NCBI RefSeq assembly: GCF_900105685.1
Contig: NZ_LT629781.1
Span: forward strand, 1,612,001-1,676,000
DNA: 64,000 bases
Source: Verrucomicrobium sp. GAS474
GTDB lineage: Bacteria > Verrucomicrobiota > Verrucomicrobiia > Methylacidiphilales > GAS474
Direction: 5' to 3'
Part shown: piece after piece, positions 1-13,839 of the stretch
Layout of the letters: every line of letters starts with the position of its first letter
How positions within the stretch are numbered: the first letter of the stretch is position 1
Translations under genes and position numbers: made by a program
The notes under the pieces: generated by a model
The model's input: the letters and a program-made list of their open reading frames with translations, nothing else
What the model was told of the DNA's origin: nothing
The model's database searches: none

Positions 1-617
1 TCCCGGCCGAGGTCCCCTACCTCGCCTCGACCGACGACGCGGCGGGGAAGGAAAAGAGGGAGGATGGCCCCCTCCGCGTCGGCATCGTCTGGGCCGGAAG
101 CGCCGCCCATGTCGAGGACCGGAGCCGGTCGTGCCCCGTCGAGGCGCTCGTGCCGTTGACGCGGGTCGAGGGGGTCGAGTTCGTCGGCCTCCAGAAGTTC
201 GAGCCGGGGAAGGGCGGGAACTATCCCTTCCCGAACGCGGTGGCCGAGTGCCGCGACTTCCTCGACACGGCGCGGGTCGTCGCGGGGCTCGACCTCGTGA
301 TCTCGGTCGACACCTCGGTCGCCCACCTCGCGGGCGGGATGGGGAAGCCGCTCTGGCTCCTCCTGCCGTGCCATGCGGAATGGCGGTGGCTCCTCGACCG
401 GGAGACCTCGCCCTGGTATCCGACGGCCCGCCTCTTCCGCCAGCCCCGGCCCGGGGACTGGGAGGGATTGGCCGAGCGCCTCGCCGGGGAGCTCGCGATT
501 TTGGCGGAAGAAAAAAAAGAACGAAGGGAAGGTCGCGCCATCGGGGCCGGGCCTGCCGCCGCGTTGATTTCGGAAGGGGGAGTCGCAACCGTCCACCATG
601 GGACCCCAGGCCCATGA
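1..617 (+). CDS. TPR protein with GT9-like C-terminal domain, 3' part only
   Basis: Reading frame open from base 3 through a TGA at 615-617; the 5' end lies outside the window. The visible ~204 residues match the C-terminal half of the two complete TPR proteins at 598-2184 and 3907-5451: a strand with VGIVWAG near the left edge, then LDLVISVDTSVAHLAGGMGK, then a tail with SPWYPTARLFRQP. ISVDT followed by HLAG is the nucleotide-sugar-binding signature of GT9 (heptosyltransferase-like) folds. Its stop overlaps the most upstream start of the next gene, so the genes are probably co-transcribed. Inferred role: glycosyltransferase acting on flagellin, from its position at the edge of a flagellin cluster. 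Confidence 0.8.
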   Translation, partial: PAEVPYLASTDDAAGKEKREDGPLRVGIVWAGSAAHVEDRSRSCPVEALVPLTRVEGVEFVGLQKFEPGKGGNYPFPNAVAECRDFLDTARVVAGLDLVISVDTSVAHLAGGMGKPLWLLLPCHAEWRWLLDRETSPWYPTARLFRQPRPGDWEGLAERLAGELAILAEEKKERREGRAIGAGPAAALISEGGVATVHHGTPGP

Positions 618-2184
618 TCCTCCTCCCATGAGTGCCCCCTCCTTTGAAGAAGCCGCCGCGATGGCGCAGGAAGCCCTCCAGCTCCAATCGGCCGGCGATC
701 CGGCGATGGCGATCGAGATCTACCGGAAGACCCTGCCGACCCTCGACGCGGTCCCCGAGATCCACAACAACCTCGCCGTCTGCCACTTCAACCTCGGCGA
801 CCTCGAGGAGGCCGAGCGGGAACTCCGCATGGCGCTCCGCCTCCGGCCGACCTACGCCGAGGCCCACAGCAACCTCGGCAACACGCTGAAGGGCGTCGGC
901 AAGGTGCGGGAGGCCGTCAGCCATTACCGCGAGGCGCTCCGCCTCTCCCCCCATTACGCCTGGGCCCACTTCAACCTCGGCACCTGCCTGCTGGAGGAAC
1001 ACCAGCCCGCCGCGGCCGAGGCCGAGCTGCGGGAGGCGCTCCTCCAGCTTCCGAAGGCGGCGAAGGTCTGGCGCAATTTCTCCCTCGCCCAGCTCGAGCA
1101 GGGGAACGTCGCGGGGGCGCTCGAGGCGATCGACCGGGCCTTCGCCCTCGATCCCGACGACGCCGAGGTCCGCTGCAACCGGGCCCTCGCCCGCCTCCTC
1201 TGCGGCGACTTCAAGGTCGGCTGGGAGGAATACGAGTGGCGGTGGCGGCTCCCCGATAACGCGCCCCTCCGCTACCCGATGCCCCGCTGGAAGGGGGAGG
1301 ACCTGCGGAACAAGCGGATCCTGCTCTGGACCGAGCAGGGCGCGGGGACGGCGATCCAGTTCATCCGCTACGCGCCGCTGCTGGCGGAACGGGGGGCCGA
1401 GGTCGTCGTCGCCTGCCCGGAAAGCCTCCGCCGTCTCTTCGTCTCGGCGCGGGGCGTCTCCGAGGTCGTCAGCCGGGAGGGGGGGGCGGGGAAGGGTTCG
1501 GGATCGCCGACCGTTCCGCCGTGCGATTACGAGCTGCCGATGATCTCCGCCGCGCTCCGCTTCGGGACGACGGAGGGGACGGTCCCGCCGCCGGAACGGT
1601 TCTTCCTCCCCGACGAGGCGGGGATCGAGGACGACGAGGAGATCGCGGCGAAGCCTCCCGGGCGGAAGCCCTTGTTGAAGGTCGCCCTCGTCTGGGCGGG
1701 CAATCCGGCCCACGCCAACGACCGCCTCCGCTCGATCCCCCTTTCGATCTTCCATCCCCTCGCCTCGATCCCGGGCATCGAGTGGATCAGCTTCCAGAAG
1801 GGCGATCCCGCCCTCGTCGCGAAGGCGGTGGCGGGCTGGCCCGCCGGACCGGAGGGGCGGGGTTTGCGCGATGCGGGGAGCGGCTTCGCCGACTTCTACG
1901 ACACGGCGATGGCGCTGGAGGAGGTCGACCTCGTGATCTCGGTCGACACCGCCGTGGCCCATCTCGCGGGGAGCCTCGGGAAGCCGACGGCGCTCTTCCT
2001 CCCCTTCCATCCCGATTGGCGGTGGATGCTCCGCCGCGGGGACACGCCGTGGTATCCCTCGGTCCGGCTCCTGCGCCAGGCGACGCCCCCCGCCGGGACG
2101 AGCCATGAGAGCGTGGCCGCAGCCTGGGCCGAACCGTTGGCCGCCGTGGCGACGTTGCTGAGAGAGCTGGCCGCGCTCCGATGA
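598..2184 (+). CDS. TPR protein with GT9-like glycosyltransferase domain
   Basis: 528 residues. N-terminal half (about 10-215) is a run of TPR units with the usual W/L-G-Y-A-P pattern (e.g. AEAHSNLGNTLKGVGK). The C-terminal half carries WTEQGAGTAIQFIRY, then VALVWAGNPAH, then EEVDLVISVDTAVAHLAGSL, the conserved GT9-like core. The domain order is that of TPR glycosyltransferases often encoded in flagellin-glycosylation islands. Start uncertain: ATG 598 overlaps the upstream stop by 20 bp; ATG 628 (MSAPSFEEA) gives a protein ten residues shorter. Paralogous to its neighbours on both sides except for the CgeB-like gene between them. The acceptor substrate is not shown by the sequence. Confidence 0.85.
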   Translation: MGPQAHDPPPMSAPSFEEAAAMAQEALQLQSAGDPAMAIEIYRKTLPTLDAVPEIHNNLAVCHFNLGDLEEAERELRMALRLRPTYAEAHSNLGNTLKGVGKVREAVSHYREALRLSPHYAWAHFNLGTCLLEEHQPAAAEAELREALLQLPKAAKVWRNFSLAQLEQGNVAGALEAIDRAFALDPDDAEVRCNRALARLLCGDFKVGWEEYEWRWRLPDNAPLRYPMPRWKGEDLRNKRILLWTEQGAGTAIQFIRYAPLLAERGAEVVVACPESLRRLFVSARGVSEVVSREGGAGKGSGSPTVPPCDYELPMISAALRFGTTEGTVPPPERFFLPDEAGIEDDEEIAAKPPGRKPLLKVALVWAGNPAHANDRLRSIPLSIFHPLASIPGIEWISFQKGDPALVAKAVAGWPAGPEGRGLRDAGSGFADFYDTAMALEEVDLVISVDTAVAHLAGSLGKPTALFLPFHPDWRWMLRRGDTPWYPSVRLLRQATPPAGTSHESVAAAWAEPLAAVATLLRELAALR

Positions 2185-2194
2185 GGATGCGAGG

Positions 2195-3910
2195 GTGGCA
2201 GGAATGGGAGTGATGGGAAAAAGCACGATTCTGCTATTGGCCGATGCCGGGGACCCGGCGGCCTGGAGTCGCGCCCGCCGCGCGCGCGCGGCTCTCTCCT
2301 CGGGGCGAGGAGACGAGCGCCAGCGGGTGCTCCTCCGCGACCTCGCCGACATGGAGGCGCTCTTCCCCCGCCTGGCCGACTCGGGCGACGTCGCGGCGGT
2401 CGGCGTCCGGCACGTGCTGGTGACGCAGCAGCGGCTTTTCCTTTCCCATTTCGACATCGGGGAGATCCGCCTTTTCTCCGCGCCCTCGGACGCCTTGCGG
2501 GCTTTCCTCGAGGAGGTTCTGGCGGCTCACGGCGCTGAAATGGGGGTCGAGGAGGGGGGTGATCCGGGCTCGGACGAAGGGATCGAAAAAGAAGGCAGGG
2601 ACGGCGTCTGGGTCGCGATCCACGAAGCCTCGACTCCCGCGACGAAGACCGCCGAGGCGATCGCCCGCGCCTGCGCCGAGGAGGGCCACCGGACCGAGAT
2701 CTGGGAAACGGGGATGATCCGGGCCCGCGTCCTGATGGAGGACGACGACGCCTCCTTCGCCGCCGAGACGGGGGCCGTCATCGGGCGCGAGATCGCCCGG
2801 CGCATCGAGGCCGGCGGGATCGGGACGATCCTCGGCCTCGACCTGAACTGGTACCTCGATCCGGGCCTCTTCCTCGACCATCCCCGGATCCGGCGGGTCG
2901 TCTCCTTCTGGTTCGACGACGTGAAGGCCTGGTGCCAGGCCCCCTACAACGCCTGCTTCCCCGGCGCCGCCGCCCGCCTTCCCGAGGCCCTCCGACATCC
3001 GAAGGTCCTCCACTGCTGCTACGGGCGGGGACAGCTGGAGGAGATGCGGCTCCTCGGCTTTGCGAACACCCGGCTCAGCTTCCTCGCCGCCCCCGCCGAG
3101 GCGCTTCGCCGCCGGGAGTGGCCCTCTCCCGAGACGAAGGGGAAGGCCGCGTTCGTCGGGAACCCCGGCCTCAACGTCCCCCCGCCACCGGCCCTCCTCG
3201 CGCTGCTGGAGCGGGGGGCGGAGATCGAGGAGATCCGCTCCCTCGCGCGGGAGATCGCGCTCCTCTTCGCCCGGAGCCATTTCGCCGCCCTCGTGGCGCG
3301 GGAGCCGTCGGTCCTCGCCTTCTTCGCCCACGCGCTCGAGCTCCGGGCGCGGGAGCCCTACATCCCGGCGGCGGTCGTCTTCCGGGCCCTGGAGGCCCAT
3401 TTCCCGGCGGTCCTCGCCGCGCTGAACCACTCCGGGGAGATCCTCAACGCCCTCCTCGTCGTGAAGATGGCGAACCAGTTCGACCGTCCCGCCCTCGTCC
3501 ACCGCCTGTGGCGGGCGGGGCTCCTCGACGTCCACAGCAACGCCGATGCGTGGCGGGCCTACGGCATCGAGGCGCGGCCCGACGTTCCCTTCCACCGCCT
3601 CGGCGAGGTCTACCAAAACTATCTCTGCCATCTCAACGGCTCCAACGCCTGCCGGGACGCGACGGCGAACGAGAAGCTCTTCGAGATCGCCGCCTACGGC
3701 CGGGTCTCGGTCAACTTCGCCTCGCCCGACGTCCTCCGCTGCTACGGTGAGGGCGAGATCGCGGCGATCGCCTCCCTCGGCGAGGCCGAGGCCCGGGTGC
3801 GGGGTTTCCTCGCCGATCCCGACACGGCCCTCGCCTTCGGCGAGCGGGCGCGCCGCCGCACCGCGTCGGAGCACCTCTGGAACCACCGCCTCCGGGGGCT
3901 CCTGACGTGA
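2195..3910 (+). CDS. CgeB-like glycosyltransferase (family 1/DUF3880 type)
   Basis: Up to 571 residues. The C-terminal ~120 residues carry the CgeB/Glyco_trans_1_2 pattern: NEKLFEIAAYGRVSVNFASP, an acidic EGEIAAIASL block, then a helix ending in R.R.TASEHLWNHR. A similar order is seen in the minus-strand gene at 11755-13008, at the other edge of the flagellin cluster. The middle contains VVSFWFDDVKAW, typical of the DUF3880-like Rossmann half. Start is ambiguous: GTG 2195, ATG 2204 and ATG 2213 are in frame and purine-rich sequence precedes each. Its stop overlaps the GTG of the next gene in a GTGA junction, which suggests translational coupling. Probably transfers a nucleotide-activated sugar; flagellin as acceptor is inferred from context. 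Confidence 0.7.
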   Translation: MAGMGVMGKSTILLLADAGDPAAWSRARRARAALSSGRGDERQRVLLRDLADMEALFPRLADSGDVAAVGVRHVLVTQQRLFLSHFDIGEIRLFSAPSDALRAFLEEVLAAHGAEMGVEEGGDPGSDEGIEKEGRDGVWVAIHEASTPATKTAEAIARACAEEGHRTEIWETGMIRARVLMEDDDASFAAETGAVIGREIARRIEAGGIGTILGLDLNWYLDPGLFLDHPRIRRVVSFWFDDVKAWCQAPYNACFPGAAARLPEALRHPKVLHCCYGRGQLEEMRLLGFANTRLSFLAAPAEALRRREWPSPETKGKAAFVGNPGLNVPPPPALLALLERGAEIEEIRSLAREIALLFARSHFAALVAREPSVLAFFAHALELRAREPYIPAAVVFRALEAHFPAVLAALNHSGEILNALLVVKMANQFDRPALVHRLWRAGLLDVHSNADAWRAYGIEARPDVPFHRLGEVYQNYLCHLNGSNACRDATANEKLFEIAAYGRVSVNFASPDVLRCYGEGEIAAIASLGEAEARVRGFLADPDTALAFGERARRRTASEHLWNHRLRGLLT

Positions 3911-5451
3911 GCGCGGGCCAGACCGGCGATCCCCGGTTGCAGCCGATCATCGCCCTCTTCCAGGAGGGGCGGGGCGGGGAGGGGACGTCGGCCCTCGACC
4001 GCTTCCTGGCGGCGGAACCCGATCACGTCGAGGCGCTGGCCCTCGCGACGTTCTGCCACGTGAGGGCGGGGAACAAGGAAGCGGCCCGCGCCTGCGTCGG
4101 GCGGGCGGCGACCCTCGGCCTCTCGCATCCGGTGGCGCTGAACAACCTCGGCCTGCTGGCCGAGGAAGCCGAGGCCGCGCCGGGGACGATCGCGGCGCTC
4201 TTCCGCCGCGCGGCGGAAGCCGATCCGGGAAACGGGGAAATCGCCGACAACCTCGAACGGGCGCTGGTCGCAGAGGGACTGGCTCCCGGCGCGGCAGCCG
4301 GGTTTTGGGAAAAGGAGCTGCGCGCCTATCCGCGGATGGCCGGGCTCTGGACGGGCCTGGGCAATCAGGGCCTCGCGGCGGGCGACCTGGCCGGGGCGGG
4401 GGAGGCTTTCGCCCGCGCGGCGGCGCTCCGCCCGGAGCGGGCCGAGACACGGGTGAACCTCGGCATCGTCGAGCACCGGCAGGGGCGGCCCGAGGCGGCG
4501 CTCCGGCGGTACGCGGAAGCGGCGGCGCTGGAGGGAGGGGAGGGGCCGTCGTCGGCGTTGCGCTGGAACCGCGCCCTCTCCCGGCTCACCCTCGGCGATC
4601 TTGAGAACGGCTTCGCCGATTACGAGGCGCGCGATTACCTCGGGGCCTACCGCCGTCTCCCGGTGCCGCGCTGGACGGGGGAACCGTTCTCGGGAACGCT
4701 GCTGCTCCACGCGGAGCAGGGTTTCGGCGACGCGATCCAGTTCGCCCGTTATGCGGCGCTGGCGAAGGAGCGGGGGGGAAGCGTCCTCCTCGCCTGCGAC
4801 CCGCTGCTGGAGCGGCTGCTCGCCCGGGTGCCGGGCGTCGACGGGATCGTCCGCGCCTCGGAGATCGACCGGGCGGCGCGGGAGGCCGCGTGGGAGGCTC
4901 CCCTTCTCTCCCTGCCCCACATCGTGCGGACGCGGCTGGAGACGATTCCGGCGTCGGTGCCGTACCTGGCCTGGGATGAAAAACCGGGGCGGACGGGAGA
5001 TCGCGGTCCTCTCCGGGTCGGCCTCGTCGCCTCGGGCAATCCGAAATACGGGAACGACCTCCGCCGCTCGATCCCGCCCGCCCTCCTCGCCCCGCTGGCT
5101 GCCGTCCCCGGCGTCCGCTGGACGGGATTCCATCACGACGGCTGTCCGGGCGGATGGTGGGAGGAAGGTCTGGCGGGCCTTCCCGACGGGTCCGATTTTT
5201 ACGACACGGCGTTGCGGCTCCGGGAAATGGATCTCGTCATCTCGGTCGACACGGCCTCGGCCCATCTGGCGGGGGCGATGGGGCTCCCGCTCTGGATCTT
5301 GCTGCCGCACGCCGCCGATTGGCGCTGGCTGCGCGATTGCGCCGACTCGCCGTGGTATCCGACGGCCCGCCTCTTCCGCCAGCCCCGCGACGGGGCGTGG
5401 GACGAAGTGGTCTCGGCGGTCGGAACGGCACTGGCCGGGTTTCCGAGGTAA
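3907..5451 (+). CDS. TPR protein with GT9-like glycosyltransferase domain
   Basis: 514 residues starting at GTG 3907, coupled to the upstream gene by a GTGA overlap. N-terminal TPR array (about 10-215) including MAGLWTGLGNQGLAAGDLAG and ETRVNLGIVEHRQGRPEAAL. C-terminal GT9-like domain with LHAEQGFGDAIQFARYA, VGLVASGNPKYGNDLRRSI and MDLVISVDTASAHLAGAM, ending in SPWYPTARLFRQPRDG. The last motif is nearly the same as in the truncated gene at the left edge, so the genes are recent paralogues. Last plus-strand gene before the minus-strand flagellins; the intervening gap holds a bidirectional hairpin terminator. Function as a glycosyltransferase is family knowledge; flagellin modification is inferred. 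Confidence 0.85.
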   Translation: MSAGQTGDPRLQPIIALFQEGRGGEGTSALDRFLAAEPDHVEALALATFCHVRAGNKEAARACVGRAATLGLSHPVALNNLGLLAEEAEAAPGTIAALFRRAAEADPGNGEIADNLERALVAEGLAPGAAAGFWEKELRAYPRMAGLWTGLGNQGLAAGDLAGAGEAFARAAALRPERAETRVNLGIVEHRQGRPEAALRRYAEAAALEGGEGPSSALRWNRALSRLTLGDLENGFADYEARDYLGAYRRLPVPRWTGEPFSGTLLLHAEQGFGDAIQFARYAALAKERGGSVLLACDPLLERLLARVPGVDGIVRASEIDRAAREAAWEAPLLSLPHIVRTRLETIPASVPYLAWDEKPGRTGDRGPLRVGLVASGNPKYGNDLRRSIPPALLAPLAAVPGVRWTGFHHDGCPGGWWEEGLAGLPDGSDFYDTALRLREMDLVISVDTASAHLAGAMGLPLWILLPHAADWRWLRDCADSPWYPTARLFRQPRDGAWDEVVSAVGTALAGFPR

Positions 5452-5523: not shown

Positions 5524-6333
5524 TTACTTGAGGAGGGAGAGGACCGCCTGCTGGCTCGAGTTGGCCTGGGCCAATTCGGCGGTGGCCGACTGGAGCAGGA
5601 TGTTATACTTCGAGAGGTTCGTGCTTTCCGTGGCGATGTCGAGGTCGGCAATGGCGCTGTTGGCGCTGGTGACGTTCGTCCGCTCGGTGTTGATGTTGGT
5701 GATGTAGAAGTTGAACTTCGAGACATCGGCGTTGACCGAGGCTCGGCGGGTCGTGATGCAGGCGATGGCGGAGTTCAGGAGCGTCAGCGAGGAGAGCGCA
5801 GCCGTGGTCGTGCTGATCGAGACCGCATTGATGCCGAGGCTGGTGGTGCTGCCGACGGTGGAGAGCGTCAGGTAATCGGTGACGCCGTCCGCGTTGATCG
5901 CAACCGAGATGCTGGCCGCCGCGAAGAGGCTGATGCCGTCGAACGTCGCGTTGCTCGAGATCGAGTCGATCTGGGTCTGGAGCGTGGCGAATTCGGTCTG
6001 GTAGTTCGCGCGGTCCGAGCTGCCGAAGGAACCGTTGGTCGCTTCCTGGGCGAGTTCGGAGAGGCGGGTGAGGATGTTCTGGATCGTGGTCAGGAAGCCG
6101 TCGGTGGTCTGGGCGGCGGAGACGACGTCCTGGGCGCCCTGGGAGGCGGCGGTGAGGCGGCGGATACGGGCGGAAAGATTGCCCGAGACGGCGACGCCGG
6201 CGGCGTCGTCGGAGGGATCAGCCAAGCGGGAACCGGAAGCGAGCTTCTGGATCGACTTGGTGAGCTGGGTGTTGTTGTAGTTGAGGTAGTTCGTCGCGCT
6301 GACGGCGGCGATGTTCGTTCCGATGACGGCCAT
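5524..6333 (-). CDS. flagellin (copy 1)
   Basis: 269-residue flagellin. N-terminal D0/D1 domain begins MAVIGTNIAAVSATNYLN and holds QKLASGSRLADPSDDAAGVA, DGFLTTIQNILTRLSELAQE and NGSFGSSDRANYQTEF. The C-terminal domain holds TNINTERTNVTSANSAIAD and ends AELAQANSSQQAVLSLLK. The region between is only about 60 residues, so D2/D3 outer domains are essentially missing, giving a short filament subunit. Secreted by the flagellar type III apparatus, so there is no signal peptide. An unusual cysteine (SAIACITTRRASVNAD) lies in the C-terminal D1 helix. Start ATG has AAAGGAAAT as Shine-Dalgarno. Identical in protein to the copy at 6633-7442. Confidence 0.97.
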   Translation of the reverse strand: MAVIGTNIAAVSATNYLNYNNTQLTKSIQKLASGSRLADPSDDAAGVAVSGNLSARIRRLTAASQGAQDVVSAAQTTDGFLTTIQNILTRLSELAQEATNGSFGSSDRANYQTEFATLQTQIDSISSNATFDGISLFAAASISVAINADGVTDYLTLSTVGSTTSLGINAVSISTTTAALSSLTLLNSAIACITTRRASVNADVSKFNFYITNINTERTNVTSANSAIADLDIATESTNLSKYNILLQSATAELAQANSSQQAVLSLLK

Positions 6334-6465
6334 AGTGATTTCCTTTCAAATACTGTCCCCATCATGGGGCCAGGTCGGTTCCTTCCGACGTTCCGGTTTT
6401 TAGAGGACCGGCAACCTGTCGAGGATTCCTTCCTCTCGAACCTCGGTCTATGACCGACGTCCTGT
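6334..6465 (-). promoter_or_regulatory. structured flagellin 5' leader (copy 1), possible CsrA target
   Basis: About 130 nt between the predicted transcription start and the ATG. Three hairpins in mRNA sense: TCGAG...CTCGA (6419-6439) with loop purines GAAGGAAT; GTCGG-AAGGAA-CCGAC (6374-6389); and CCCCAT-G-ATGGGG (6357-6369). The Shine-Dalgarno itself is AAAGGAAA. AAGGA matches the ANGGA core bound by CsrA/RsmA. The stems recur with compensating base changes in the other leaders, which supports a real RNA structure. CsrA control is inferred by analogy with hag and flaA leaders of other bacteria; no csrA or fliW gene is in this window. Confidence 0.55.
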
Positions 6466-6470
6466 CTTAT

Positions 6471-6497
6471 CTTTCGGAAGGAACGGGGAAAACTTTA
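6471..6497 (-). promoter_or_regulatory. FliA (sigma-28)-like promoter of flagellin copy 1
   Basis: Minus-strand TAAAGTTT (6490-6497), exactly 11 bp, then TCCGAAAG (6471-6478). The sigma-28 consensus is TAAAGTTT-N11-GCCGATAA, so the -35 is a perfect match and the -10 matches at five of eight positions. Flagellin copies 2-4 have the same layout and spacing. Confidence 0.65.
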
Positions 6498-6570
6498 CCT
6501 TTTTTTGAGGAATCTTTTTCTCCGTCCCGCTTTTCCCTGGGGAAGAGGAGAGAGGTGGTAAAAACAAAGA

Positions 6571-6600
6571 GGCCGGTTCCCGCGAGGGAACCGGCCTTTT
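6571..6600 (-). terminator. terminator of flagellin copy 2
   Basis: Duplicate of the hairpin at 5461-5486: an 11-bp stem (6571-6581 with 6586-6596) and GCGA loop. On the minus strand it is followed by TCTTTGTTTTT. It separates flagellin copy 2 from the promoter of copy 1. Confidence 0.85.
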
Positions 6601-6632
6601 GCTTAACCTTGGAGGAGTTACCCGCTACCCAA

Positions 6633-7442
6633 TTACTTGAGGAGGGAGAGGACCGCCTGCTGGCTCGAGTTGGCCTGGGCCAATTCGGCGGTGGCCGACT
6701 GGAGCAGGATGTTATACTTCGAGAGGTTCGTGCTTTCCGTGGCGATGTCGAGGTCGGCAATGGCGCTGTTGGCGCTGGTGACGTTCGTCCGCTCGGTGTT
6801 GATGTTGGTGATGTAGAAGTTGAACTTCGAGACATCGGCGTTGACCGAGGCGCGGCGGGTCGTGATGCAGGCGATGGCGGAGTTCAGGAGCGTCAGCGAG
6901 GAGAGCGCAGCCGTGGTCGTGCTGATCGAGACCGCATTGATGCCGAGGCTGGTGGTGCTGCCGACGGTGGAGAGCGTCAGGTAATCGGTGACGCCGTCCG
7001 CGTTGATCGCAACCGAGATGCTGGCCGCCGCGAAGAGGCTGATGCCGTCGAACGTCGCGTTGCTCGAGATCGAGTCGATCTGGGTCTGGAGCGTGGCGAA
7101 TTCGGTCTGGTAGTTCGCGCGGTCCGAGCTGCCGAAGGAACCGTTGGTCGCTTCCTGGGCGAGTTCGGAGAGGCGGGTGAGGATGTTCTGGATCGTGGTC
7201 AGGAAGCCGTCGGTGGTCTGGGCGGCGGAGACGACGTCCTGGGCGCCCTGGGAGGCGGCGGTGAGGCGGCGGATACGGGCGGAAAGATTGCCCGAGACGG
7301 CGACGCCGGCGGCGTCGTCGGAGGGATCAGCCAAGCGGGAACCGGAAGCGAGCTTCTGGATCGACTTGGTGAGCTGGGTGTTGTTGTAGTTGAGGTAGTT
7401 CGTCGCGCTGACGGCGGCGATGTTCGTTCCGATGACGGCCAT
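6633..7442 (-). CDS. flagellin (copy 2)
   Basis: Protein identical to flagellin copy 1 (269 residues, same D0/D1-only architecture and same cysteine in SAIACITTRR). It is one of the two units of the tandem duplication described separately. Shine-Dalgarno AAAGGAAAT sits at the usual distance from the ATG. It has its own leader, promoter and terminator, so each copy can be expressed as a monocistronic unit. Identical proteins suggest dosage or recombination-driven maintenance rather than division of labour. Confidence 0.97.
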   Translation of the reverse strand: MAVIGTNIAAVSATNYLNYNNTQLTKSIQKLASGSRLADPSDDAAGVAVSGNLSARIRRLTAASQGAQDVVSAAQTTDGFLTTIQNILTRLSELAQEATNGSFGSSDRANYQTEFATLQTQIDSISSNATFDGISLFAAASISVAINADGVTDYLTLSTVGSTTSLGINAVSISTTTAALSSLTLLNSAIACITTRRASVNADVSKFNFYITNINTERTNVTSANSAIADLDIATESTNLSKYNILLQSATAELAQANSSQQAVLSLLK

Positions 7443-7577
7443 AGTGATTTCCTTTCAAATACTGTCCCCATCATGGGGCCAGGTCGGTTCCTTCCGACGT
7501 TCCGGTTTTTAGAGGACCGGCAACCTGTCGAGGATTCCTTTCCTCTCGAACCCCGGTCTCGATGACCGATGCTCTAT
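7443..7577 (-). promoter_or_regulatory. structured flagellin 5' leader (copy 2)
   Basis: Nearly the same as leader 1. Hairpins lie at 7466-7478 (CCCCAT/ATGGGG) and 7483-7498 (GTCGG-AAGGAA-CCGAC), with a distal TCGAG/CTCGA stem near 7528-7549. AAGGA motifs appear in loops and in the Shine-Dalgarno. Because this leader is part of the duplication it adds little independent support for the structure. Confidence 0.5.
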
Positions 7578-7582
7578 CCCTT

Positions 7583-7609
7583 ATTTCGGAAGCAGGCCCA
7601 AAAACCTTA
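7583..7609 (-). promoter_or_regulatory. FliA (sigma-28)-like promoter of flagellin copy 2
   Basis: Minus-strand TAAGGTTT (7602-7609), 11 bp, TCCGAAAT (7583-7590). One mismatch to the -35 consensus; the -10 keeps the CCGA core. The sequence between the boxes differs from promoter 1, so conservation of boxes and spacing is informative. Confidence 0.6.
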
Positions 7610-7670
7610 ATTCTTTTTGCGATTCTTTTGCGGGGAAAATTACCTAGGCCGTGGCAAAGCCAAAGCCGCC

Positions 7671-7907
7671 CTCCCTCTCCCCTAGGAGTCTGAACGTATG
7701 GGTACTGCTCCCCCTTCAGTACGTACCCTCGGGCGTACCGGAACCATCCGATTTTAATCCAGTTCGGAGACGAGGCGCCGCCCAAGCGCGTCCGCCTAGC
7801 TAAGGCCCTCAGAACAGGAGGTTCCAGGAGGGGCAAAGCCCCTCTTGGGCTATAAAGCGGAGCGCCTCCAGCTGTACAGGGTCGACCCCGCCAGCCCCGA
7901 AGGGCCC
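7671..7907 (+). repeat. dispersed intergenic repeat, copy A (type 1)
   Basis: Member of a family with seven copies in this window. In plus sense it runs from CCTAGGAGTCT through GATTTTAATCCAGTTCGGAG, CCCAAGCGCGTCCGCCTAG and the core hairpin GAGGGGC-AAA-GCCCCTC (7828-7844). It continues to TATAAAGCGG, CTCCAGCTGTACAGGGT and CCCCGAAGGG. Located between the promoter of flagellin 2 and the terminator of flagellin 3. No ORF or terminal inverted repeat of a known element was recognised. Confidence 0.8.
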
Positions 7908-7937
7908 TCCGCAAGGCCGCCCCCCCAAACAAAAAAA

Positions 7938-7959
7938 GGCCGCCCCTTCCGGGACGGCC
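7938..7959 (-). terminator. terminator of flagellin copy 3
   Basis: Hairpin with loop TTCC, stem 7938-7946 with 7951-7959. The single plus-strand mismatch becomes a U-G pair in minus-strand RNA, and seven T residues follow on the minus strand, so it fits termination of the minus-strand flagellin. Confidence 0.8.
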
Positions 7960-7979
7960 TTTTCATTCCACCTACCGAA

Positions 7980-8789
7980 TTACTTCAGGAGGGAGAGAAC
8001 CGCCTGCTGGCTCGAATTGGCCTGGGCCAATTCCGCCGTGGCCGACTGGAGCAGGATATTGTACTTCGAGAGGTTGGTGCTCTCGGAGGCGATATCGAGG
8101 TCGGCGATCGCGCTGTTCGCGCTCGTGACGTTCGTCCGTTCGGTGTTGATGTTGGTGATGTAGAAGTTGAACTTCGAGACATCGGCATTGACCGAGGCGC
8201 GACGGGTGGTGATGCAGCTGATCGCCGAGTTGAGCAAAGTCAACGAGGAGAGGGCCGCAGTCGTCGTGCTGATCGAGACCGTGCTGATGCCGAGGCTCGT
8301 GGTGCTGCCAACGGTGGAGAGCGTCAGGTAATCGGTGACGCCGTCCGCGTTGATCGCGACCGTGATGCTCGTCGCCGCGAAGAGGCTGATCCCGTCGAAC
8401 GTCGCATTGCTGGCGATCGAGTCGATCTGCGTCTTCAGGGTCGAGAACTCGGTCTGGTAATTCGCCCGGTCCGCGCTGCCGAAGGAGCCGTTGGTGGCTT
8501 CCTGCGCCAACTCGGAGAGCCGGGTCAGAATGTTCTGGATCGAGGTGAGGAAGCCGTCCGTGGTCTGGGCCGCGGAGACGACGTCCTGCGCGCCCTGGGA
8601 CGCCGCGGTGAGGCGGCGAATACGGGCGGAGAGGTTCCCCGAGACGGCGACACCGGCCGCGTCATCGGAGGGGTCGGCCAAGCGGGACCCGGAAGCGAGC
8701 TTCTGGATCGACTTGGTCAACTGCGTGTTATTGTAGTTGAGATAATTCGTCGCGCTGACCGCGGCGATATTGGTTCCTATCACTGCCAT
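7980..8789 (-). CDS. flagellin (copy 3)
   Basis: 269 residues, about 95 percent identical by eye to copies 1 and 2. Differences include GFLTSIQNIL, EFSTLKTQIDSIASN, AATSITVAIN and SAISCITTRR. The D0/D1-only architecture and the C-terminal cysteine are conserved. Shine-Dalgarno AAAGGAAC precedes the ATG. It has its own promoter, leader and terminator. Many third-position changes relative to copies 1 and 2 while protein is conserved show purifying selection on the filament subunit. Confidence 0.97.
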   Translation of the reverse strand: MAVIGTNIAAVSATNYLNYNNTQLTKSIQKLASGSRLADPSDDAAGVAVSGNLSARIRRLTAASQGAQDVVSAAQTTDGFLTSIQNILTRLSELAQEATNGSFGSADRANYQTEFSTLKTQIDSIASNATFDGISLFAATSITVAINADGVTDYLTLSTVGSTTSLGISTVSISTTTAALSSLTLLNSAISCITTRRASVNADVSKFNFYITNINTERTNVTSANSAIADLDIASESTNLSKYNILLQSATAELAQANSSQQAVLSLLK

Positions 8790-8924
8790 AAGAGTTCCTT
8801 TCTAATCCCAAGCCCGTCATGGGCTCGGGTCGGTTCCTTCCGACATCCGGTTTTTACATGAAGGTCCCGGCGACCTTTCGAGGAATCCCTCCTCTCGAAT
8901 CTCGATCTGCAGACCGAGTCCTGA
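8790..8924 (-). promoter_or_regulatory. structured flagellin 5' leader (copy 3)
   Basis: Diverged from leaders 1-2 but with the same three stems: GCCC/GGGC (8812-8824), GTCGG-AAGGAA-CCGAC (8829-8844) and TTCGAG/CTCGAA (8877-8899, loop containing GAGGGA). The first stem has changed sequence on both arms relative to leaders 1-2, i.e. compensatory change. ANGGA-like motifs remain in two loops and in the Shine-Dalgarno. Confidence 0.55.
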
Positions 8925-8929
8925 CTCGT

Positions 8930-8956
8930 GTATCGGATTTAAAAAGGGAAACTTTA
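8930..8956 (-). promoter_or_regulatory. FliA (sigma-28)-like promoter of flagellin copy 3
   Basis: Best match of the set: minus-strand TAAAGTTT (8949-8956), 11 bp, TCCGATAC (8930-8937), six of eight positions of GCCGATAA with a perfect -35. Confidence 0.7.
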
Positions 8957-9040
8957 GTCTTTTTTGGGAAAAAGACCGAATAACGGCACAACTCTTTCTC
9001 GGCCTGCTCCAAAGGGAGTGAGAAGAAAGGAGCACAAAGA

Positions 9041-9067
9041 GGCCGGTCCCCTTTCGGAGACCGGCCT
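9041..9067 (-). terminator. terminator of flagellin copy 4
   Basis: On the minus strand GGCCGGTCTCC-GAAA-GGGGACCGGCC: an 11-bp stem with one U-G pair and a GAAA tetraloop, followed by TCTTTG. Analogous in position to the other flagellin terminators. Confidence 0.75.
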
Positions 9068-9103
9068 GTTGCTTAACCTTGGAGGAGTTTACCCGCTACC
9101 CAA

Positions 9104-9913
9104 TTACTTGAGGAGGGAGAGGACCGCCTGCTGGCTCGAGTTGGCCTGGGCCAATTCGGCAGTGGCCGACTGGAGCAGGATGTTGTACTTCGAGAGGTTC
9201 GTGCTTTCCGTGGCGATGTCGAGGTCGGCGATGGCGCTGTTGGCGCTGGTGACGTTCGTCCGCTCGGTGTTGATGTTGGTGATGTAGAAGTTGAACTTCG
9301 AGATGTCGGCATTCACCGAGGCGCGGCGGGTGGTGATGCAGGCGATCGCCGTGTTCAGCAGCGTCAGCGAGGAGATCGCCGCCGTCGTCGTGCTGATGGA
9401 GACGGCGTTGATCCCGAGGCTCGTCGTCGTTCCGATGGAGGACAGGGTGAGGCTGTCGACGATGCCGTCGGCATTGATCGCCACCGTCACGCTCGTCGAG
9501 GTGAAGAGGCTGATGCCGTCGAACGTCGCGTTGCTCGCGATCGAATCGATCTGGGTCTGCAGCGTGGCGAATTCGGTCTGGTAGTTCGCCCGGTCGGCGC
9601 TCCCGAAGGAGCCGTTGGTCGCTTCCTGCGCCAGCTCGGAGAGCCGGGTCAGGATGTTCTGGATCGTGGTGAGGAAGCCGTCCGTGGTCTGGGCCGCGGA
9701 GACGACGTCCTGGGCGCCCTGCGAGGCCGCGGTGAGGCGGCGGATGCGGGCGGAGAGGTTGCCCGAGACGGCGACGCCGGCGGCGTCGTCGGACGGATCG
9801 GCGAGGCGCGAGCCCGAGGCGAGCTTCTGGATCGACTTGGTGAGCTGCGTGTTGTTGTAGTTGAGGTAATTCGTCGCGCTGACGGCGGCGATGTTGGTTC
9901 CGATAACGGCCAT
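9104..9913 (-). CDS. flagellin (copy 4)
   Basis: 269 residues. The N- and C-terminal D0/D1 regions are close to copies 1-3; the short central region differs most (TSTSVTVAINADGIVDSLTL), as expected for the surface-exposed part. Cysteine conserved in TAIACITTRR. Shine-Dalgarno AAAGGAAC. Own promoter, leader and terminator. Confidence 0.97.
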   Translation of the reverse strand: MAVIGTNIAAVSATNYLNYNNTQLTKSIQKLASGSRLADPSDDAAGVAVSGNLSARIRRLTAASQGAQDVVSAAQTTDGFLTTIQNILTRLSELAQEATNGSFGSADRANYQTEFATLQTQIDSIASNATFDGISLFTSTSVTVAINADGIVDSLTLSSIGTTTSLGINAVSISTTTAAISSLTLLNTAIACITTRRASVNADISKFNFYITNINTERTNVTSANSAIADLDIATESTNLSKYNILLQSATAELAQANSSQQAVLSLLK

Positions 9914-10054
9914 AAGAGTTCCTTTCTGCTTACTGTCTCCATCATGGAGTCAGGTCGGTTTTTTCCTGCCGACGTCCCCGGGGTTTTCCTAAGGTCTCGG
10001 GAGCCTTTCGAGGGTTTTCCCTCTCGAACATCAGTCATTTAACCGATGCTCTGT
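9914..10054 (-). promoter_or_regulatory. structured flagellin 5' leader (copy 4)
   Basis: Most diverged of the four long leaders but the stems persist: CTCCAT/ATGGAG (9937-9949), GTCGG/CCGAC with a longer loop (9954-9973, loop CAGGAAAAAA in mRNA sense) and TTCGAG/CTCGAA (10007-10028). CTCC/GGAG here replaces CCCC/GGGG of leader 1, a paired change on both arms. Confidence 0.55.
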
Positions 10055-10059
10055 CCCTT

Positions 10060-10086
10060 ATTTCGGAAGGCACACGGTAAACTTGA
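10060..10086 (-). promoter_or_regulatory. FliA (sigma-28)-like promoter of flagellin copy 4
   Basis: Minus-strand TCAAGTTT (10079-10086), 11 bp, TCCGAAAT (10060-10067). Same spacing as the other flagellin promoters. The remaining sequence up to 10197 shows nothing further that I recognise. Confidence 0.6.
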
Positions 10087-11084: not shown

Positions 11085-11136
11085 GGTTCCGTCCTCGTTC
11101 TTTCCACCCCGGAATCATTCCAGGGTACGCTCACGA

Positions 11137-11754: not shown

Positions 11755-13008
11755 CTAAGCGGCCCTCGTCAGGCCCAATCCTCCCAGCACCTCGCGCACC
11801 CGGTGGGCCCAGGTGTGTTCGGCGAGGAAGCGTTCCCGTCCCGCCGCGGCGAGGGCTTGGCGTTCCGGGGCGTGGGTCAGCCAGCGGGCGATGGCCGGGG
11901 CGATCTCGGCCTCGGTGCGGTAGCAGGCGATCTCGGTCCCCTCGCGGTAGCAGGCGAGGAGCTCCGGCTTCACGTCGGTGAGGAGGGCCTGGCCGCAGGC
12001 GGTGGTCTGGAAGACGCGGAAGGGGAGGCCGCCGAGGACCGACTGGGGATCGGTCCCCTGCAGGTGGAGGCGGCCCTCGGCGTAGAGGAGGGGGAGGTCG
12101 CGCAGGGGGAGGTTCCCGGTATTGTGGAAGTGGAGGGGATGGGGGGCGGGGCCGACGAGGGCGGCCAGTTCCCCGGCCCCGGCCTGGGTCTGTTCCAGAT
12201 TCCCGGAAAAGAGGGTGACGGGGGCGGCGTCGAGGGCGGCGCGGAGCATCCGGCGGCGGACCTCGTTTTTCCCCAGGTGCCAGGCGAGGGCGCGGAGGGC
12301 GAGGAGGGCGTCGGGAGTCCGGACGGCGAGGGCCTCGACCTCGGCGCGGAGCCGTTCGGGCAATCCGGCGAGGGCGGCCTCGACGAGGGCGAAGGGATCG
12401 GCGCCGAAGGGGGCGGCGACGAGGGCGGCCTCGACCTGCCGGGCCGCCTTCGCGAGGACGGGGGAGAGGGCGGCCTTCCGCGCCTCGATGGCGGCGCGGG
12501 AGGCCAGGGTGCCGATGAAGACGACGTCGTCGACCGTCCGTCCCTCGGGGGGGAGGGGGCGATAGAAGTCGGGATCGGCGGCGAGGTGGATGGGGCGGGA
12601 GGCGATGCCGTGCCGCTCCGCGAGCCAGGCCCGCCAATGGCCGTCCCAGACGTGGTGATGGACGTGGGGCCGCCGCAGCGCGTCGAGGAAGCCGGGCTCC
12701 CGCTCCCAACGGGTGACGGGCCGGTAGGGATCGTCGAACCAGAAGCAGACGAGGGGGCGCCCGGCGACCTCGGGCCGCTCGAAGAAGGAGGGGAGGGTGA
12801 AGAGGAGGGCGCTGGCGGCGAAGAGGGCGGCGGGGTCCTTCCGCCCGATCTCGGCGGCGAGGGCCGCGGCGGTCTCCTCCGGGGGGGCGTCGGGCCGGCG
12901 GAGCGCCCGTTCCTCCACCTCGTGCCCGGCGGCGCGGAGGGCGGCGTTCCACTCGTCGAGGGCCAGGTGGCGCATGCCGAGGAGGGGATGGAGGGTGAGG
13001 AAGTTCAT
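11755..13008 (-). CDS. CgeB-like glycosyltransferase
   Basis: 417 residues from ATG 13006-13008. N-terminal Rossmann-like half with PLVCFWFDDPYRPV and HHHVWDGHW; C-terminal half with FRVFQTTACGQALLTDVKPE, CYREGTEIACYRTEAEI and a final HTWAHRVREVL helix, the conserved pattern of CgeB/Glyco_trans_1_2 proteins. CgeB relatives act on spore coat or flagellar surface glycans. The open frame runs further upstream into the divergent coaX region; I chose the first ATG outside it. No strong Shine-Dalgarno. Likely part of the flagellin-modifying set. Confidence 0.75.
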   Translation of the reverse strand: MNFLTLHPLLGMRHLALDEWNAALRAAGHEVEERALRRPDAPPEETAAALAAEIGRKDPAALFAASALLFTLPSFFERPEVAGRPLVCFWFDDPYRPVTRWEREPGFLDALRRPHVHHHVWDGHWRAWLAERHGIASRPIHLAADPDFYRPLPPEGRTVDDVVFIGTLASRAAIEARKAALSPVLAKAARQVEAALVAAPFGADPFALVEAALAGLPERLRAEVEALAVRTPDALLALRALAWHLGKNEVRRRMLRAALDAAPVTLFSGNLEQTQAGAGELAALVGPAPHPLHFHNTGNLPLRDLPLLYAEGRLHLQGTDPQSVLGGLPFRVFQTTACGQALLTDVKPELLACYREGTEIACYRTEAEIAPAIARWLTHAPERQALAAAGRERFLAEHTWAHRVREVLGGLGLTRAA

Positions 13009-13050
13009 CCGTTTGCAAAAAGGCGCAGGCAAGGTATAGATGCCTTCTCC

Positions 13051-13839
13051 ATGCCGGACGAACTCAAAAAGAAAGAGGCTCCGTTCCTCGTCGTCGACGT
13101 GAGCAACTCGTTCACGAAGTACGCCGTCGCCACGCCGGGCCGCCTGCTGCGCGGGCAGGGCGGCACCTGCCCGACGCCGTCGCTCAACCTCGCGACGGTC
13201 CGGGCTCTGGCCCGCCGTTTCAAGGGGAAGGCGGTCTTCCTCAGCAGCGTCGTCCCGGCGCGGACGAAGATCTTCCGGCGCGTCTTCGGCAGGCGGCTCC
13301 ACGTCCTCCACGGGGAGGCGGTCCCGCTGGGGATGCCGGTCCGCTATCCGAACAAGGCCCGGATCGGCCCGGACCGCCTGGCGAACGCCCTCGCCGTCCG
13401 CTCCCTCTACGGCGCGCCCGCCGTCGTCATCGACTTCGGCACGGCGGTGACCTTCGACGTGATCGACCGGGACGGGGCCTACTGCGGCGGCGTCATCGCC
13501 CCCGGCCTGAACATGATGACCGAGTACCTGCACGAGCGGACGGCGCTCCTCCCCCGCGTCGAGGTCCGCGAGCCGCGCCGCGCCATCGGGAAGAGCACCG
13601 AGGAGGCGATCCGCGTCGGCGCGGTGATCGGCTACCGGGGGATGATCCGGGAGATCCTCGGCGCGGTCCGGAGCGAGCTCCTCGCGGGGAAAAAGCCGAA
13701 GGGGACCGTCCACGTCGTCGCCACCGGCGGGCAGGCCGGGATCGTGGCGCGGGCGATGCCCGAGGTCGCTGCCGTCGTCCCGGGGCTGACCCTCGACGGG
13801 CTCCGGCTCTGGGCCGGGACCGTCCTCGCCTCTATTTGA
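13051..13839 (+). CDS. coaX: type III pantothenate kinase
   Basis: 262 residues from ATG 13051. Phosphorylates pantothenate, the first step of CoA synthesis, in the cytoplasm. The ASKHA-fold phosphate loop DVSNSFTKYA near the N-terminus, the PNKARIGPDRLANALA segment and the DFGTAVTFDVID motif followed by GGVIAPGLNMM are the CoaX signatures. Length is near the family norm. Divergent from the CgeB-like gene 42 bp away. The 3' end overlaps the convergent membrane-protein gene by 8 bp. Confidence 0.93.
   Translation: MPDELKKKEAPFLVVDVSNSFTKYAVATPGRLLRGQGGTCPTPSLNLATVRALARRFKGKAVFLSSVVPARTKIFRRVFGRRLHVLHGEAVPLGMPVRYPNKARIGPDRLANALAVRSLYGAPAVVIDFGTAVTFDVIDRDGAYCGGVIAPGLNMMTEYLHERTALLPRVEVREPRRAIGKSTEEAIRVGAVIGYRGMIREILGAVRSELLAGKKPKGTVHVVATGGQAGIVARAMPEVAAVVPGLTLDGLRLWAGTVLASI

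Follow-up and report, generated by a model that had tools for sequence, protein, structure and literature searches.

In this study, we analysed a 64-kb stretch of the genome of Verrucomicrobium sp. GAS474 (contig NZ_LT629781.1, positions 1,612,001 to 1,676,000; in the following, the window), in which four flagellin genes (F1-F4) are preceded by structured leaders. A comparison with related genomes suggests, with a probability of roughly 85%, that these are flagellin leaders repressed by CsrA and relieved by FliW. They agree with the description of such leaders in every listed feature that can be tested. Each has a GGA in the loop of a hairpin (H4) and a second GGA in the Shine-Dalgarno (SD) sequence, and a further hairpin (H5) with an AYGAN loop lies between both sites. 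In the proposed mechanism, sigma28 would give each flagellin transcript a leader of ~140 nucleotides (nt), and one CsrA dimer would occupy the GGA of the H4 loop with one pocket and that of the SD sequence with the other. H5, folded in between, would bring the GGA sites within bridging distance, and the bound CsrA would keep the 30S ribosome off. Flagellin retained in the cell would occupy FliW and leave CsrA free to repress, while after flagellin export FliW would bind CsrA and translation could start.

The leaders comprise ~137-147 nt upstream of F1-F4 on the minus strand (about 6334-6480, 7443-7590, 8790-8940, and 9914-10065). For each gene, a sigma28-like element is located at -164 to -173, upstream of every hairpin, and a FliA sigma factor gene scoring over the family cut-off is present in the genome. 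Transcription would start upstream of the hairpins, from the sigma28-like promoters. The following features, all on the minus strand, were assigned, with the basis in brackets:

5524..6333, minus, flagellin gene F1 (open reading frame, Flagellin_N/C Pfam matches)
6340..6346, minus, SD sequence AAAGGAA of F1, second conserved GGA (sequence)
6353..6373, minus, H5 of F1, CTG.CCCC-ATGAT-GGGG.CAG, AYGAN pentaloop between both GGA sites (covariation, loop counts)
6374..6389, minus, H4 of F1, GTCGG-AAGGAA-CCGAC, CsrA-type GGA hexaloop (loop GGA unpaired probability 0.96-0.97)
6421..6437, minus, H2 of F1, loop GGA not conserved in F4 and G002 (folding)
6443..6457, minus, core of H1 of the F1 leader (folding, alignment)
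6471..6497, minus, sigma28-like promoter of F1, TAAAGTTT-N11-TCCGAAAG (motif, FliA gene in the genome)
6633..7442, minus, flagellin gene F2, one base different from F1 (open reading frame, sequence comparison)
7449..7455, minus, SD sequence of F2 (sequence)
7462..7482, minus, H5 of F2 (loop counts)
7483..7498, minus, H4 of F2 (folding)
7583..7609, minus, sigma28-like promoter of F2 (motif)
7980..8789, minus, flagellin gene F3 (open reading frame)
8795..8801, minus, SD sequence of F3 (sequence)
8808..8828, minus, H5 of F3, loop ATGAC, stem GCCC/GGGC (covariation, loop counts)
8829..8844, minus, H4 of F3 (folding)
8930..8956, minus, sigma28-like promoter of F3, TAAAGTTT-N11-TCCGATAC (motif)
9104..9913, minus, flagellin gene F4 (open reading frame)
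9919..9925, minus, SD sequence of F4 (sequence)
9933..9953, minus, H5 of F4, stem CTCC/GGAG (covariation, loop counts)
9954..9973, minus, H4 of F4, loop CAGGAAAAAA (folding)
10060..10086, minus, sigma28-like promoter of F4 (motif)
11107..11125, minus, AYGAN hairpin before a fifth flagellin gene (F5), CCCTGGA-ATGAT-TCCGGGG (outside positions 6334-10054, to which the original prediction referred)

For folding, the leaders of F1-F4 and one leader of a congener (G002) were used, with z-scores of -2.8 (F1), -2.1 (F2), -1.7 (F3), -3.0 (F4), and -3.6 (G002). The original prediction had described leaders of about 130 nt with three hairpins before four flagellin genes; the leaders themselves were found again, and folding resolved five helices rather than three. 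The differences in H1 and in the outer portion of H5 are compensating and G-U changes, H3 has weak support (72% of cells paired), and H4 has an invariant stem GTCGG/CCGAC with the loop AAGGAA, AAGGAAU or CAGGAAAAAA, confirming that this stem is kept while its loop varies. GGA motifs had been reported for the hairpin loops and the SD sequence in general. This holds for the H4 loop and the SD sequence AAAGGAA, the only GGA sites conserved in 5/5 leaders, but not for the loop of H2, whose GGA, of all loop GGA the closest to the promoter, is present in F1-F3 only and is lost in F4 and the congener G002. In the predicted ensembles, the GGA of the H4 loop is open with a probability of at least 0.76 at every base and that of the SD sequence is mostly open; in some minimum-energy folds (F3, F4, and G002, not F1) the 5′ end of the leader pairs with the SD/start region. 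Within the window, hairpins with an ANGGA hexaloop 15-50 nt before an SD GGA were found before F1-F3 only.

The structure is supported by compensatory changes. In the five folded sequences, pairs changed on both sides numbered 6, compared with 2.8 ± 1.1 in shuffles, and the start-proximal stem (H5) changes on both arms as originally noted (CCCC/GGGG, GCCC/GGGC, CTCC/GGAG). The genes F1 and F2 differ at 1/810 bases, without any difference in the proximal leaders, so that the four leaders amount to three independent copies. Covariation was also found in wider alignments, as the original prediction demanded. The stem of the GGA hairpin in 16 leaders of many families is 100% paired and covaries at 5/6 pairs. 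A set of 14 leaders was selected for the presence of the H5 hairpin and is thereby biased to pairing; here, 94% of the H5 stem is paired, 6/6 pairs change on both sides, and the covariation score in this preselected set is 0.958 compared with 0.253 ± 0.057 in shuffled sequences (0/500).

Both regulators are encoded in the complete 3.76-Mb genome. The search which had been proposed for them gave one csrA gene (76 bits, cut-off 27) and one fliW gene (103 bits, cut-off 25), located side by side in a cluster flgN-flgK-flgL-fliW-csrA, the order found in Bacillus. CsrA retains the RNA-binding residues L4, R6, K7, R44, and E46 as well as N55 and I51 at the FliW-binding positions (roles according to PMC6692469 and PMC7829508). 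Among 116 relatives, flagellin, csrA, and fliW are present in 23 genomes each, 22 of them in common. In 384 genomes of the class, flagellin genes occur in 89, csrA in 86, and both in 83 (Fisher p=1e-72, phylogeny ignored), csrA being almost confined to flagellin-bearing genomes. Many class genomes (G111:C18, G253:C116, G379:C3, G171:C61, and others) have one flagellin gene directly behind csrA, like hag in Bacillus. Nearly all have a single csrA, while G322 has three (C30, C15, C5).

For a class-wide comparison, 100 flagellin upstream regions were used. Hairpin loops contain GGA in 51 cases compared with 14 for the opposite-strand equivalent TCC, shuffled sequences giving 4.8 ± 2.2. A GGA hairpin is present in 23/35 leaders with a sigma28-like promoter compared with 3/20 leaders directly behind csrA (p=6e-4), the latter three being near-identical. 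For the distance between the loop GGA and the SD GGA, most leaders form two groups, one of 19-22 nt with no hairpin in between and one of 37-45 nt with an intervening hairpin; F1-F3 have 39 nt with H5 between the sites, and G002 has 42 nt. Exceptions are G074_a (13 nt), G137 (26 nt), and three near-identical leaders with 36 nt and no hairpin. For CsrA, an intersite range of 10-63 nt with an optimum of about 18 nt has been described (PMC7652899), and in Campylobacter jejuni flaA the distance is 21 nt (PMC4894983). The observed spacings are compatible with bridging by one CsrA dimer. Taken together, the presence of csrA and fliW, the covariation, and the GGA loops specific for strand and leader type support the CsrA control originally predicted.

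Several points weigh against this reading. The counts ignore kinship, H4 shows no covariation inside its own family because its stem is invariant, and in the congener G001 as well as in several members of the order no GGA hairpin is clearly recognizable close to the SD sequence. Also, a class covariance model (R2) gave no match to F1-F4; therefore, the architecture is considered common, and no class-wide homology of the leaders is claimed. Many other flagellin leaders of Verrucomicrobiota (in the upstream parts of L055, L073, L074, L084, L091, L094, L098, L105, L111, L112) share a longer common RNA without an Rfam match, consisting of GTCG..GACA, GGCNGGCCGGCAGCC..AGCCGGC, GGTG..CACC, a GGA hairpin, CCCC-GCAA-GGGG, and an SD hairpin GACTCANGGAAGGAGTC.

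The covarying start-proximal hairpin H5 had been counted among the hairpins of a GGA-loop leader; it does covary, but its own loop is AUGA(N) instead of GGA, which had been overlooked. AYGAN is the commonest pentaloop in the 100-leader set, with 21 hairpins on unrelated stems compared with 1 for the reverse complement. The loop mostly starts at -31 to -35 from the start codon, ~20 nt from the SD GGA. A leader peptide starting at the ATGATG in the H5 loop was considered and rejected: the frame is out of frame and overlapping in F1, F3, and F4, and early stops in G039 and G020 show that it is not conserved.

Most likely, H5 serves as a spacer which shortens the path between the GGA sites. That it does nothing else, the loop being conserved for folding, has a little less than an even chance in our judgement. 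In other families, this place is taken by another hairpin (often CCCC-GCAA-GGGG) with unchanged spacing, and leaders without an intervening hairpin mostly have the 19-22 nt spacing mentioned above; however, a spacer role alone leaves unexplained why the AYGAN loop is almost invariant on stems that are unrelated. Possibly, H5 additionally provides an auxiliary or altered contact for CsrA.

Such a contact would refine the proposed CsrA-FliW control: the AYGAN loop itself could be a CsrA site, recognized by a CsrA of shifted specificity in this order and replacing the GGA loop of the Opitutaceae. We regard this as rather unlikely, but it accounts for the loop bias and for its position, since leaders of the Opitutaceae have a canonical GGA loop at the same place (GGA at -30 to -33) and paralogous leaders of G075 carry AGGAT and ATGAT on one and the same GGCCAC stem. 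CsrA also differs. In 12 genomes it has L/V/R at position 43 and S/T/A at position 45, compared with H/F/Y/Q/M and K/Q/E/M/R/G, respectively, in other class members, and in RsmQ, H43 is of importance for the binding of nucleic acids (PMC9928087). This change tracks the loop, which was found in 9/11 scored genomes with altered CsrA compared with 1/24 others (p=7e-6). In contrast, G028 and G091 have an altered CsrA without a scored AYGAN loop, and the coincidence may go back to one ancestral event and is therefore treated as a lead only. Furthermore, the exchange of GGA to UGA in hairpin SL1 of C. jejuni flaA abolishes CsrA control (PMC4894983), so that an AUGAU loop should be bound poorly by an ordinary CsrA. 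The more specific idea that a CsrA lineage altered at positions 43 and 45 and its flagellin target changed together, recognition of AYGAN replacing that of ANGGAN 20 nt upstream of the SD sequence, is tentative and appears unlikely; if true, it would be a natural specificity shift of a protein whose known preference is for GGA. In G015, CsrA (L120) is without the conserved Glu46, RRSGP replacing R-x-E, and the flagellin leader with AYGAN hairpins is still there.

A different loop-binding protein, specific for flagellin mRNA, might recognize H5 in addition to CsrA. The conservation of the loop and its restriction to flagellin leaders would suit it: a model of the hairpin plus the SD sequence (R3) had five matches in the GAS474 genome, located before F1-F5, with the next candidate at E=9, and in relatives matched flagellated genomes only and none of the non-flagellated ones, several of the matched sequences having been used to build R3, so that these match by construction. 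The position of the loop and the exchange of AGGAT and ATGAT nevertheless point to CsrA, making a second protein improbable. Three weak phylum-level matches of R3 outside the order were rejected as chance (one at a prepilin-like gene, one within a coding region, and one at a short frame).

The hairpins could just stabilize the message without involvement of CsrA; flagellin mRNA is an abundant species, and stable stems are frequent at 5′ ends in general. We consider this very improbable; the preference of GGA loops for one strand and one type of leader, the spacing to the SD sequence, and the occurrence of csrA almost only with flagellin oppose it. That a long, structured, and covarying leader might represent a known family of riboswitches or attenuators can practically be dismissed, as the window has no Rfam 15 match at the gathering threshold and only sub-threshold chance matches at a relaxed threshold, and none of the folded leaders has a terminator-like hairpin before the gene.

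Of the six flagellin genes of the genome, five are located inside the window, all on the minus strand. The products of F1-F4 have 269 amino acids each, and the flagellin of a congener, whose genome is a metagenome-assembled one, is 75% identical. F1 is a recent duplicate of F2 or vice versa: positions 5524-7590 of the window, with both genes and their leaders, form a nearly perfect tandem duplicate in which the distal leaders diverge. Proteins with tetratricopeptide repeats and glycosyl transferase-like proteins (PF13524, weak PF01075) are encoded on both sides of the flagellin genes (598-5451 and 11755-13713) and possibly have a role in flagellin glycosylation. The sixth gene, F6 (in the region G000:C1:1720180-1723581), has a sigma54-like -24/-12 element TTGGCATGGCCGGTGCT ~100 nt upstream and no H4/H5 leader; the upstream regions of G001_c and G002_d resemble that of F6. 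Possibly, F6 and F1-F4 are produced at different stages.

The near-exclusive co-occurrence of csrA and flagellin genes in the 384 genomes fits the idea that the control of flagellin is an ancient and dedicated function of CsrA. A natural test of dimer bridging is offered by the two classes of spacing (~20 nt direct, ~40 nt with a hairpin), and for a test of protein-RNA co-evolution of the AYGAN loop and the altered CsrA, two proteins and two short RNAs would suffice. A search of open papers, outside of which most subscription journals lie, gave no study of a CsrA-FliW flagellin brake in Verrucomicrobiota.

Among known systems, hag of Bacillus subtilis likewise has two GGA sites, one of them over the SD sequence, and csrA directly downstream of fliW in the cluster flgN-flgK-flgL-fliW-csrA; the FliW-binding Asn55 is retained in the CsrA described here. 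Unlike hag, there are several paralogous leaders with five hairpins each, a hairpin between the sites, and an AYGAN loop, and F1-F5 are not beside csrA. Escherichia coli glgC, an example of dual-site bridging, also has a high-affinity hairpin loop upstream of the SD site (PMC7652899), but it is non-flagellar and the antagonists are the small RNAs CsrB/C instead of FliW. The flaA leader of C. jejuni (PMC4894983) shares a hairpin with an ANGGA hexaloop plus an SD GGA and compensatory changes in relatives; its transcription by sigma28 and its antagonism by FliW have counterparts here in the sigma28-like promoters and in the csrA and fliW genes, respectively. It has a length of 45 nt with two adjacent hairpins and a distance of 21 nt, whereas the leaders of F1-F3 comprise ~140 nt and have their sites 39 nt apart, separated by H5, and the change of GGA to UGA that kills control in SL1 contrasts with the conservation of UGA-type loops here. 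What sets the leaders apart from the known brake is H5 with its AYGAN loop between both sites; for that brake, an AUGA-type loop has not been described.

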